From an uncultured Pelagibacteraceae bacterium (GTDB lineage Bacteria > Pseudomonadota > Alphaproteobacteria > Pelagibacterales > Pelagibacteraceae): a DNA stretch of 64,000 nt. The translations under genes and the position numbers were made by a program. Shown here piece after piece: positions 1,563-5,586 of the stretch. The stretch covers positions 1-64,000 of the forward strand of contig CACDLE010000002.1 of NCBI GenBank assembly GCA_902553555.1, written 5' to 3'. Numbering within the stretch: position 1 is the first letter of the stretch; every line of letters begins with the position of its first letter. The notes under the pieces are model-generated. The model did not search any database and was not told the origin of the DNA. It saw only the letters and a program-made list of their open reading frames with translations.

Positions 1563-2435
1563 ATGAAAAAAAAGTTATTTGAAGGATCTTTATTTGCAGC
1601 TGGTGCCTCTCTTTGGTGGGGTATCATAGGTGTTATTTATTTTAAATTTGTGTCTTTTGCGTCGCCTGTTGAATTAACAATACATCGTACTATTTGGACA
1701 ACAGTGCTTTTAGTATTTACGACCTTTTATTTTGGAAAGTGGTCAGAATTTAAAAAAGTAACTAAATCTCTAAGTACTTTAGGTTTATTATTTCTTACTG
1801 GAGTTTTAGTTTCTATTAATTGGTTTACATGGCTTTATTCTATCTCAGTAAACAATATGCTAGATGCATCACTTGGATATTATATTTTTCCTATATTAAG
1901 TGTTTTTTTGGGAAGGATATTTTTAAAAGAAAAAATTAATAGAAATAAATCAATCGCTATATTTCTTGTCTTTTTATCTTTAATTTATTTACTAATTGAA
2001 TTTAAGAATATTCCATGGATTGGTTTAACAGTCGCAATCACATTTAGTTTTTATACTTTAATAAGAAAAAAAATAAATATTTCATCAGATATAGGATTAT
2101 TTTTTGAAACTTTGTTGATATCCCCAATAGCATTAATTTTATTCAGCTCTCTTGTTTTTAATAATACAAATGTTTTTGGATTTGATAATCCTACATTATC
2201 TTTTTATTTGTTTTTTGCAGGATTTATGACACTCGTTCCTCTCTTTATGTACATAAAAGGATTTGAATTAATAGGAATAGGACCTGCGAGCATGATATTT
2301 TTTTTGACACCAACAGCTCAATTTTTTTTAAGTATATTTTACCTAGGTCAACCACTTGAAATAGAAAAATTAATAAGTTTTTTATTTATATGGATAGCAG
2401 TAATAATTTACCTTAACGAATTGCGTAAAGAGTGA
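1563..2435 (+). CDS. rarD: EamA/RarD-type drug/metabolite transporter
   Basis: 290 aa multi-TM protein; AAGASLWWGIIGVIYFKF N-terminus typical of RarD. Confidence 0.8.
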   Translation: MKKKLFEGSLFAAGASLWWGIIGVIYFKFVSFASPVELTIHRTIWTTVLLVFTTFYFGKWSEFKKVTKSLSTLGLLFLTGVLVSINWFTWLYSISVNNMLDASLGYYIFPILSVFLGRIFLKEKINRNKSIAIFLVFLSLIYLLIEFKNIPWIGLTVAITFSFYTLIRKKINISSDIGLFFETLLISPIALILFSSLVFNNTNVFGFDNPTLSFYLFFAGFMTLVPLFMYIKGFELIGIGPASMIFFLTPTAQFFLSIFYLGQPLEIEKLISFLFIWIAVIIYLNELRKE

Positions 2436-3859
2436 AATAAAATTATTATAAGAGGAACAAATAGAGATATAAGAAAAGATATGAAAAGTAGATTTGTTCT
2501 AATAAAAATTGAAAAATTATCAATAGATATCAAATTTCCTACTAAAATACTTGTCTCAAAATTTTGACTTGGAAAAAACAATAGACCAAAAATCAAACCA
2601 AGAATTATTGAATAAGCTGCAAGTTTAGGATTAATATTTTTGTTAAAAAAACCATAAAAAATTGTAACAACAGCAGCACAGCAAAGAAGATCAGCCAGTA
2701 AAAATAAGTATAATATACTATATCCTCTTGATGCAAAAATAAAAACTATAGAACATATAAATAAAATAATAAAATTTGTTTTTTCTTTAATTTTTTTTCC
2801 TTTAATTATTTTGTTTATTTGACTACCATTCACGATTAGCAAACTTGAAATAGCATTTATTAATGTGTCAATGGTACTTAATGTTAATGACAATGCTAAA
2901 ATTAATACTGACACAACTATAAGAGATTTTTTTTCATCTAAAATTAAGTTAAAGAAAGCAAGATCTGGAGTAACTTTTGAATTTAATGAAAAAGATATTA
3001 AACCTGAATATCCCATCCAAAAAACTATTATGAAAATTATAATAGATGAATTAATTAAACTTTTTTTTAAAATTGAGTTATTTTTTGCTGAAAAAACTCT
3101 TTGCCAATTACCTTGATGAAATAAATTGGTACAAGCCACCGCTATGAAAAAAGTTAAACCAGCTGTGTAGTTAGGTATATAATCTTTGCTAATTAATTGT
3201 GGTGAATTTATTTTTATTGTTTCATAGCTGGTTAGATTTAAGTTATTAAAAACTAAAATTAATGAAAATAAAATAATGCACATTATAAAAATAAACTGAT
3301 ATTTGTCAGTAATAATTGAAAGTTTAAAACCCCCTCTTAATATATAAAGTAAACAAATGATTAAGGTTAAACCCGCGGTAACCCATAATGGAATTTTTGA
3401 AATATAATTTAATAAAAATGCTATAGCCGTCACTTCAGCAATTAAAAAAATTATCAAATAAAATAATATTAAGAATAAACTTAATTTTAATATAGTTTGA
3501 CCAAATCTTTTTTGAATAAATTCAGTTAATGTTAAACCGTTCGGAAATTCTCTTCTGATTTTAGGGCCAAAATTGTAAAGAAATAACATTGGTGCGGCCG
3601 TACCTAATGCATAACCGATTACAGCACCTATCCCTCCCCAAGTTGCTGCAGAAGGAGGGCCAAATAAAATCCAAGCTCCCAGTGCTGATGCTGTTAGGCT
3701 CGAAGTTAATGAAAATGTATTTTCATCCCTATCACCTACAATATAATTTTTATTGTTAAATATTTTCTTATTATTTAAGTAACCCAGCCATATAAAGAAC
3801 AGGCCGATTAATATTGTGATAGCTATTGTTGTTTGTTGCGATAAAAGTATTTTATCCAT
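2408..3859 (-). CDS. thiV: Sodium:solute symporter family protein, probable HMP/thiamin-precursor transporter (ThiV-like)
   Basis: 483 aa, about 13 TM, SSS-like motifs; preceded directly by a TPP riboswitch. ThiV-like function in SAR11 is established knowledge. Confidence 0.75.
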   Translation of the reverse strand: MDKILLSQQTTIAITILIGLFFIWLGYLNNKKIFNNKNYIVGDRDENTFSLTSSLTASALGAWILFGPPSAATWGGIGAVIGYALGTAAPMLFLYNFGPKIRREFPNGLTLTEFIQKRFGQTILKLSLFLILFYLIIFLIAEVTAIAFLLNYISKIPLWVTAGLTLIICLLYILRGGFKLSIITDKYQFIFIMCIILFSLILVFNNLNLTSYETIKINSPQLISKDYIPNYTAGLTFFIAVACTNLFHQGNWQRVFSAKNNSILKKSLINSSIIIFIIVFWMGYSGLISFSLNSKVTPDLAFFNLILDEKKSLIVVSVLILALSLTLSTIDTLINAISSLLIVNGSQINKIIKGKKIKEKTNFIILFICSIVFIFASRGYSILYLFLLADLLCCAAVVTIFYGFFNKNINPKLAAYSIILGLIFGLLFFPSQNFETSILVGNLISIDNFSIFIRTNLLFISFLISLFVPLIIILFHSLRNSLR

Positions 3860-3860
3860 A

Positions 3861-3922
3861 GCTCCCTTACTGAATTACCGGTCAGGTTCGTCGGGTATAA
3901 TCTCAGTCTTTCTGACACCCCG
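3861..3922 (-). promoter_or_regulatory. TPP (thi-box) riboswitch
   Basis: Minus strand CGGGGTGTCAGAAAGACTGAGATTATACCCGACGAACCTGACCGGTAATTCAGTAAGGGAGC contains the thi-box core: GGGGTG, CTGAGA, ACCC, GAACCTGA, TAAGGGA. Confidence 0.93.
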
Positions 3923-3928
3923 TATTTT

Positions 3929-3958
3929 TTTATACTACTATTTTAGGCAAAGAGTCAA
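3929..3958 (-). promoter_or_regulatory. Candidate sigma70 promoter for the riboswitch/thiV
   Basis: Minus strand TTGACT (3958-3953), 18 nt spacer, TATAAA (3934-3929); -10 overlaps the umuC stop codon. Identified by eye only. Confidence 0.5.
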
Positions 3959-5213
3959 ATGAAGCAGTATCTATTTTAGATGAATGTTCTCTTCTCATTT
4001 TCCAACCTTTGCTTAGTCCTGCTTGAGCTATACTGATCGCATATCGTCCGTATTTTGTATTAGTATAATCTATAGCTTTCATTAATTTCTTAGATTTGTT
4101 TTCAAGAAGTGGAGTTAAAAGATTCTGATCATTTTGATTTGCATCTTTCAGTCCTGATAAGATTATTCCAGCTTTTTGATAAGCATAACCGTATTTGTAT
4201 ATATCGGTTAGTGCTTTAACAGCATTTTTTATTAATTCTATGCTATTACTAGTAGGGATTGCTAAATCTATTGTTTTTGAATTAGAGTAGTATCTTCTAT
4301 TTTTATCAAATGGACTTGTTCTGATAAATACTGTTATTGTTTTTGCTATTTGATCATCAGCTCTAATTTTTTCTGCTGCATTCAAGCAATGTGTAATAAC
4401 TGATTCCTCTAATTCATTTAAATCTTTTACTTTTCTACCAAATGATCTTGAGACACAACAATTCTTCCTTTTCTCTTGATCTATTTGTAAGTCAATACAA
4501 GGTATTCCTCTTAGTTCCATCGCTGTTTTCGCACCTAAAACATTTGTTCCTTTTTTCACCCACGTGTTTGAAACATTTTTTAAATCATAAGCGTTGCTTA
4601 TATTGTTCTTATGGTAAAACTTAGATAGCTGTTTACCTACCCCCCAAACATCTTCAATTGGAAATTTTTTTAACCTTTCATCAATATTTGTATTTAAATA
4701 AATTACACCTGCTTTTTCTTTTTTTGCTATATGATTAGCCACTTTACTTAATGTTTTTGTGCTGGCTATACCTACGCTTGTTGGTATACCCGTCCACTTA
4801 AGAACTCTTAATCTTATCTCTCTTCCATAATCCTCAACTCCTTTTTCATCTATAAAAGATAAATCAATAAAAGCTTCATCGATTGAATAAATTTCTACTT
4901 TTGGTGAAAAAGTTTTTAATACTTTCATAACTCTTCTCGATATATCTCCATACAATGCATAGTTTGATGAATACACTTCAACTTTATTTTTTTTTACTAA
5001 TTCTTTTACTTTGAAGTAGGGTTCTCCCATTTTAATACCTAAATCTTTTGCTTCTCTTGATCTAGATATTACACATCCATCATTATTTGATAAAACTACT
5101 ACAGCTTTTTTTTGTATCTTAGGATTAAAAAGTCTCTCACAGGATACGTAAAATGAATTACAATCTACTAAGGCTATTCTATTTTTCTTAGTTGTGTACT
5201 TGATGGATGACAT
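3930..5213 (-). CDS. umuC: Y-family DNA polymerase V catalytic subunit
   Basis: ALVDCNSFYVSCERLFNP...VEIYSIDEAFIDL, typical UmuC; follows umuD with overlap. Confidence 0.95.
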   Translation of the reverse strand: MSSIKYTTKKNRIALVDCNSFYVSCERLFNPKIQKKAVVVLSNNDGCVISRSREAKDLGIKMGEPYFKVKELVKKNKVEVYSSNYALYGDISRRVMKVLKTFSPKVEIYSIDEAFIDLSFIDEKGVEDYGREIRLRVLKWTGIPTSVGIASTKTLSKVANHIAKKEKAGVIYLNTNIDERLKKFPIEDVWGVGKQLSKFYHKNNISNAYDLKNVSNTWVKKGTNVLGAKTAMELRGIPCIDLQIDQEKRKNCCVSRSFGRKVKDLNELEESVITHCLNAAEKIRADDQIAKTITVFIRTSPFDKNRRYYSNSKTIDLAIPTSNSIELIKNAVKALTDIYKYGYAYQKAGIILSGLKDANQNDQNLLTPLLENKSKKLMKAIDYTNTKYGRYAISIAQAGLSKGWKMRREHSSKIDTASFDSLPKIVV

Positions 5214-5586
5214 AAGTTACCACTCCCCAAATAATTACTTCTTGATCGTTTGCTAAATGAATTCTTTCTGATTTTTTTTTAGATCCAGATGTTAAAAATG
5301 TTTCCCCTTTTTCTTTCAGGATTGTTTTCACCACTAATTCATCGTTAACATTGGCTATAACTGTTGAAAGATTTTTTGGGTTAATACTTCGATCTACTAT
5401 TAATAAATCACCATCGTAGATTCCTACGCTATTCATAGACTTACCTTGAACTCTAATTATGAATGTTGCTGGTGAATTTTTTATAAGATGATGATTTAAA
5501 TCTACATCATCCTCTATGTAGTCCGTTGCGGGAGAGGGAAAACCCGCTCCTACTTTGTGTATGTAATAAGGTATTTTCAGCTCCAT
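5188..5586 (-). CDS. umuD: UmuD-like S24 peptidase, Pol V accessory subunit
   Basis: AGFPSPATDY cleavage-site region, GKSMNSVGIYDGDLLIVDR (catalytic Ser), VVKTI (catalytic Lys); overlaps umuC. Confidence 0.94.
   Translation of the reverse strand: MELKIPYYIHKVGAGFPSPATDYIEDDVDLNHHLIKNSPATFIIRVQGKSMNSVGIYDGDLLIVDRSINPKNLSTVIANVNDELVVKTILKEKGETFLTSGSKKKSERIHLANDQEVIIWGVVTYVIHQVHN

Follow-up and report, generated by a model that had tools for sequence, protein, structure and literature searches.

How could a riboswitch aptamer that is practically the entire predicted 5' UTR of its gene control that gene, and what would it sense? The question is raised by a short piece of the minus strand (3924-3857, TACGGGGTGTCAGAAAGACTGAGATTATACCCGACGAACCTGACCGGTAATTCAGTAAGGGAGCTATG) of the window, the 64,000 nt of an uncultured Pelagibacteraceae genome analysed here, in which a TPP-type aptamer directly adjoins the start of an SSF transporter gene. 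The Rfam TPP model RF00059 was found by cmscan at 3932-3844 (-) with 40.2 bits (E 1.3e-6 in 401 nt; whole-genome E 5.7e-7). This is under the gathering cut-off of 54.3 bits, so a default Rfam scan is silent on the aptamer; its homology to RF00059 is clear because graded relatives score up to 71 bits. The covariance-model check agrees with the original prediction, which had placed a TPP-type aptamer at 3857-3922 upstream of a thiV-like SSS transporter. The transporter was likewise recognised by PF00474 and falls in the SAR11 ThiV clade of the ThiV tree (support 100/100), its predicted substrate being HMP or a thiamin precursor. The parts of the locus are collected in Table 1. Straight after the ThiV start codon lies a near-perfect hairpin, GATAAAA-TAC-TTTTATC (3856-3840, minus strand), that reduces predicted start accessibility in the window; it was set aside, not being conserved in locus L060 or in most relatives. 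Second, weak RF00059 matches in the window's genome (G000; 13.4 bits) and in G027 were also set aside, the locus L002 having no recognisable core.

Table 1. Features of the predicted thiV leader and its flanks (positions of the window)
Feature	Position	Strand	Basis
TPP-family aptamer, Shine-Dalgarno (SD) and start codon, from first P2 nucleotide to ATG	3857..3922	-	RF00059 match and comparative alignment
P2 5' strand CGGG, partner CCCG 3895-3892	3919..3922	-	98% of cells paired
P3 hairpin GUC..GAC, 3916-3914 with 3908-3906	3906..3916	-	100% paired in 50 sequences
CUGAGA, J3-2, pyrimidine (HMP) binding motif	3901..3906	-	invariant in alignment; role from PMC9544697, PMC7824784
Contiguous P4-P5 hairpin, canonical J4-5 missing	3865..3886	-	model alignment and comparative pairing
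Shine-Dalgarno TAAGGGA (TAAGGGAGC), overlapping P4 3' strand	3863..3869	-	sequence; AGGG to AUG 4 nt
Possible 3-bp P1 remnant, UAU with AUA 3925-3923, overlapping AUG	3858..3860	-	no better than chance in genus
thiV/SSSP-like sodium:solute symporter, 483 aa, ATG 3859-3857	2408..3859	-	PF00474 E 2.2e-15; ThiV trees
Predicted promoter TTGACT (3958-3953), 18 nt, TATAAA (3934-3929)	3929..3958	-	promoter score against shuffled

The aptamer is widespread, RF00059 having matched in 248 of 297 genomes of the family, many of them incomplete. Only 16 reach the Rfam cut-off, which misses nearly all of these switches because of the J4-5-less variant described below. Loci were collected from the RF00059 search (30), by region (80), and from a sister family and other Alphaproteobacteria (54), and 157 aptamers were parsed. 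The comparative alignment of 50 distinct sequences, whose proteins are often about 50% identical to that of the window, has about 80 columns, of which thirty are invariant, including CUGAGA, UAAU and the A of AGGGA. Of the features expected of RF00059, P2 and P3 with the CUGAGA loop are present and 98-100% paired, and compensatory changes are seen in P2 (the outer pair changes on both sides), at two pairs of P3, and in P5. Such constraint, maintained over so many genomes, makes it very improbable that the RNA is a decaying relic that binds nothing and of which the SD strand alone is kept, even though P1, J4-5 and part of P5 have been lost and most members lie under the Rfam cut-off, as decay would predict.

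The notable point of this locus is the loss of the pyrophosphate pocket. J4-5, the motif of which has been named 'GCG' (PMC9544697), holds the pyrophosphate and its metal ions in E. coli thiM; conservation is high at G60, C77 and G78, the last two of which form hydrogen bonds to the pyrophosphate (PMC3764141, PMC7824784). In the Infernal alignment of the window exactly the four J4-5 columns are deleted, AU and CG (thiM A61, U62, C77 and G78), a loss overlooked in the original prediction, which took the TPP pocket as intact. Measured between ACCU and AGGR, the insert is 16-17 nt long and has no CG in 87 of 87 sequences from eight Pelagibacteraceae genera (g1-g6, g8 and g11); C77 and G78 are missing from every one of them and G60 is mostly present. 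The same variant occurs in HTCC1062 and in g10, g13 and g14. An insert of 20 nt with CG is found in all 30 other Alphaproteobacteria, in all 24 members of the sister family (f2), and in g7 and g9, and CG is also kept in g12 (20 or 18 nt) and in the divergent ThiV copies L028 and L029 (18 nt).

In the variant, P4 and P5 form one helix, in which a single G/purine (or G/U) position separates P4 (CCU/AGG) from P5. The outermost P5 pair is A-U or U-A and the second C-G or U-A; the third position is a C/A opposition, or U-A in some. In the window, P4 pairs 3886-3884 with 3867-3865, followed by the single G3883/A3868 mismatch and by P5 (ACCG/CAGU, 3882-3879 with 3872-3869, C3880 opposite A3871) and the loop GUAAUU. 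An alignment artefact was considered and rejected: however the sequences are aligned, the stretch from the UAAU loop to AGGG contains no CG, and the positions replacing the junction are paired, with A-U/U-A and C-G/U-A exchanges. Since sliding the partner strand by one position lowers pairing from 78% to 33%, J4-5 is absent and not misaligned. No mention of a missing J4-5 was found in the literature examined; Rodionov 2002 and Weinberg 2017 may mention the variant. On the ThiV trees the J4-5 state changes on a single branch (support 100/100), divergent copies included. The exact variant pattern, sought over 84,980 species genomes, gave at least 120 stretches, and all 80 listed are from Pelagibacterales; none was found in viral contigs, and carriage by viruses was rejected.

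With J4-5 deleted, either recognition of TPP would therefore be reduced, or the ligand would be an HMP-containing vitamer that needs no pyrophosphate. We give about even odds to an ordinary TPP riboswitch in which the pyrophosphate of TPP and its magnesium ions are held by other nucleotides of the shortened P4-P5 arm, such as G3883 and the opposite purine. The family match and gene context are consistent with it, every other pocket element is kept, end-product control by TPP is the rule in the TPP family (PMC2258182), and sister genera with an intact pocket regulate the same type of gene. It has to contend, however, with the disappearance of the two residues that hydrogen-bond pyrophosphate in thiM and that are, with G60, among the most conserved (PMC3764141, PMC7824784), and with the Watson-Crick pairing and compensatory changes of the positions around them. 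Changed specificity, with HMP, thiamin or TMP sensed via the retained HMP pocket, is a somewhat more tentative proposal, drawn from sequence comparison. It would explain why the pyrophosphate loop was lost exactly and CUGAGA strictly retained, and it suits a single change maintained for long over 11 genera; but ThiV stands under an intact pocket in g7, g9 and g12, and HMP alone is small and would touch one arm only.

The genes that accompany the aptamer bear on the same choice. Downstream of the variant stands ThiV or, in some g2 members, an NMT1/THI5-like binding protein; both are HMP-type, and this favours changed specificity, as does the sister family, where the intact-loop aptamer is followed by the thiamin-binding ThiB and thiamin pyrophosphokinase replaces ThiD and ThiE (the former present, the latter two absent in the two genomes tested). 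ThiD and ThiE were present in all 18 other Pelagibacteraceae genomes tested, and ThiC was found in 0 of 21. This company suits a switch for HMP uptake, and an HMP-type ligand becomes conceivable, but the argument is only suggestive because of the g7, g9 and g12 ThiV genes behind an intact loop. At the g2 loci L030, L032, L073 and L074, the NMT1/THI5-like protein behind the J4-5-less aptamer has no obvious signal peptide.

Several further observations concern thiamin genes in these genomes. In the genome of the window, thiE occupies two overlapping frames and contains a stop (contig C16, 1345-1894); either the gene is broken or the assembly is wrong at this place. The assembly is 63% complete, and no thiD was found in it. 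ThiL (TMP kinase) was over the cut-off only in g4 and g6 among 21 genomes (including G004, G018, G027, G005, G009 and G040). A tie between loss of J4-5 and loss of thiL was rejected, as thiL exceeds the cut-off in two genera that have lost the loop (g4, g6), and not in two others that have lost it (g1, g5) or in two that have kept it (g9, g12). Near-complete genomes of g1, g5, g9 and g12 have only PurM/PurL-like matches and no thiamin pyrophosphokinase; the missing step from TMP to TPP has been published as unexplained for SAR11 IIIa (PMC10030771), and g1 and g5 are added to it here. A FabG-like short-chain dehydrogenase is preceded by a canonical TPP aptamer, J4-5 intact, at L005 (g12; NF006393 matched) and L011 (g9). 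Behind the TPP aptamer of g12 there is a TorF-type putative porin gene (L014) and, some 700 nt downstream, a ThiV-like coding match (L022); the two may form an operon for uptake across the outer and inner membranes.

As to how the aptamer could act on its gene, its last conserved strand, TAAGGGA, is at once the P4 3' strand and the sole SD candidate. AGGG is 4 nt from the AUG in 41 of 42 genus members and 1-9 nt from the start in every measured Pelagibacterales, the range being 0-151 nt in the 30 other Alphaproteobacteria. An SD role is plausible because strong SD motifs lie upstream of 18 of the 60 window ORFs, compared with a background of 6.4%; pattern matches taken for the 16S 3' end, as the anti-SD source, turned out to be non-rRNA and were discarded. 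No terminator-like site was found near the aptamer, and the start codon, 4 nt past AGGG with no platform between, is well within the 15 nt from the core that delimits direct translation attenuation. The original prediction had made the aptamer 3' end the SD, with the ATG within a few nt and no separate expression platform, and this observation is confirmed. Its interpretation is partly supported: the merging of aptamer, RBS and AUG, offered as the predictor's own reading, is real but not new in kind, since an RBS buried within the core characterises a class already described, commonest for TPP, preQ1 and SAM-I riboswitches (Barrick and Breaker 2007, PMC2258182). Meyer et al. had in 2009 listed a TPP riboswitch upstream of SAR11_0811, the HTCC1062 transporter, and had also remarked on the short RNAs of that strain (PMC2704228).

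The closing helix P1, a feature of RF00059, is absent from the window's genus. The leader in the window has 0 bp in register; a 2-nt shift yields three A-U pairs, in which the first two letters of the start codon take part. The mean length of the best P1 across 24 distinct genus members is 2.21 bp, and shuffling the flanks gives 2.18 bp; in the sister family it is equally at chance (2.20 and 2.20). Nearly all members of g7 and g9 have a perfect 6-bp P1, g5 has about 5 bp, and means exceed shuffled values in g2 (5.0 vs 2.07), g4 (3.16 vs 2.27) and the other Alphaproteobacteria (4.43 vs 2.16); P1 is also present in g12. As g5, g7, g9 and others retain it, P1 has been lost in some lineages only, and the near-absent P1 noted earlier holds for the window's genus but not in general.

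A likely reason for this loss in the genus is the position of the predicted promoter. In 16 of 27 genus members a TTGACT-N18-TATAAT/A promoter stops 8 nt short of GGGG (7 nt in the window); it scores 17.6 against 13.6 for shuffled sequences (27 members, mostly in register). A caveat is that this promoter covers the final umuC codons, so that conservation of the encoded protein preserves the same letters too. The distance to GGGG is mostly 12-16 nt in other Alphaproteobacteria. The transcript is therefore predicted to begin at about GGGG, leaving almost no 5' P1 strand. The umuD/umuC-like translesion polymerase genes lie directly upstream of the aptamer (3930-5586, minus strand), with the umuC stop codon inside the predicted thiV -10 box, a compact layout common to part of the genus. 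It is unlikely that a P1-like helix forms over the start codon and makes AUG, not the SD, the switched element: in the window's genus the pairing equals that of shuffled flanks, and the predicted promoter leaves scarcely any transcribed strand for it, although flanks pair better than shuffled, including A or AU of AUG, in g5, g12 and part of g2 and g4, and AUUGU of HTCC1062 can pair with ACAAU.

The preferred reading, with a probability of about 0.7, is that an aptamer of the TPP lineage makes up the whole leader and works as an OFF riboswitch on translation; SD occlusion and the direction of control are what we infer. Without ligand, the weak P4-P5 would open and TAAGGGA would be free for the ribosome, so that ThiV, the putative importer of HMP or thiamin precursors, would be made. 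A ligand with an HMP ring would bind CUGAGA in the P2-P3 arm and dock the P4-P5 arm alongside, through the UAAU loop and junction adenines, and this docking would lock P4, hide the SD next to AUG and stop uptake. A separate expression platform would be unneeded and, in the window's genus, so would P1. The mean P4-P5 energy at 37 C is -3.9 kcal/mol in the genus and -2.9 in g4, compared with -10.1 in other Alphaproteobacteria, and this weakness in the variant suits a hairpin that must open without ligand. In HTCC7211, exposure to HMP is followed within an hour by attenuated uptake of the compound; however, that uptake has been called constitutive, the attenuation could also be post-transcriptional, and the 2024 paper considers that ligand specificity and activity of SAR11 riboswitches still need confirmation (PMC11452348). 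Folding alone also fails to predict an apo state with a cleanly free SD: the mean unpaired probability of AGGR in thermodynamic folding is 0.35 in the genus and 0.54 in the window, P4-P5 is present in the window's minimum-energy fold, and the shuffle z-score of the hairpin is only -0.55. An alternative pairing of the P3 5' strand with CUGAC, spotted by eye in the window, was rejected since it is lost in g4.

Compared with known systems, the RNA shares with RF00059 (the TPP riboswitch, or THI element) P2, P3, the CUGAGA J3-2, P4, P5, the UAAU loop, AGGGA and a downstream thiamin-precursor transporter, but it is without J4-5 (thiM A61 U62 / C77 G78) and, in the window's genus, without P1, and its score is below gathering. 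The riboswitch of Ca. Pelagibacter ubique HTCC1062 SAR11_0811 (PMC2704228) is a direct relative whose P4-P5 likewise has no J4-5 and whose AGGGA is fused to AUG in the same way; it differs in that it can form a short offset P1 over AUG, which the window's genus does not beyond chance. Direct translation attenuation (PMC2258182) has the start codon within 15 nt of the core and a purine-rich conserved 3' strand as RBS, as here; it was predicted mostly in Actinobacteria and Cyanobacteria, whereas here it is universal in an alphaproteobacterial order. The HMP-PP riboswitch (thiS motif; Atilho et al. 2019, PMC6478431) demonstrates that a thiamin vitamer other than TPP can be the ligand, but it has an unrelated structure and a transcription terminator platform, and it turns genes on. 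It could be speculated that the variant is a very abundant new class of the TPP riboswitch lineage, confined to Pelagibacteraceae as far as seen, in which the pyrophosphate sensor is deleted, an HMP-containing vitamer (HMP, thiamin or TMP) replaces TPP, the P4 strand is the SD switch, and P1 is missing in some genera, a possibility we hold tentatively.

SAR11 are among the most abundant marine cells and rely on scavenged HMP, and the way they control its uptake bears on models of vitamin B1 cycling. Should TPP no longer be what this RNA reads, its usual label would be wrong for most SAR11 genomes, and the group would offer a natural experiment in how a riboswitch sheds half of its binding pocket together with its closing helix.
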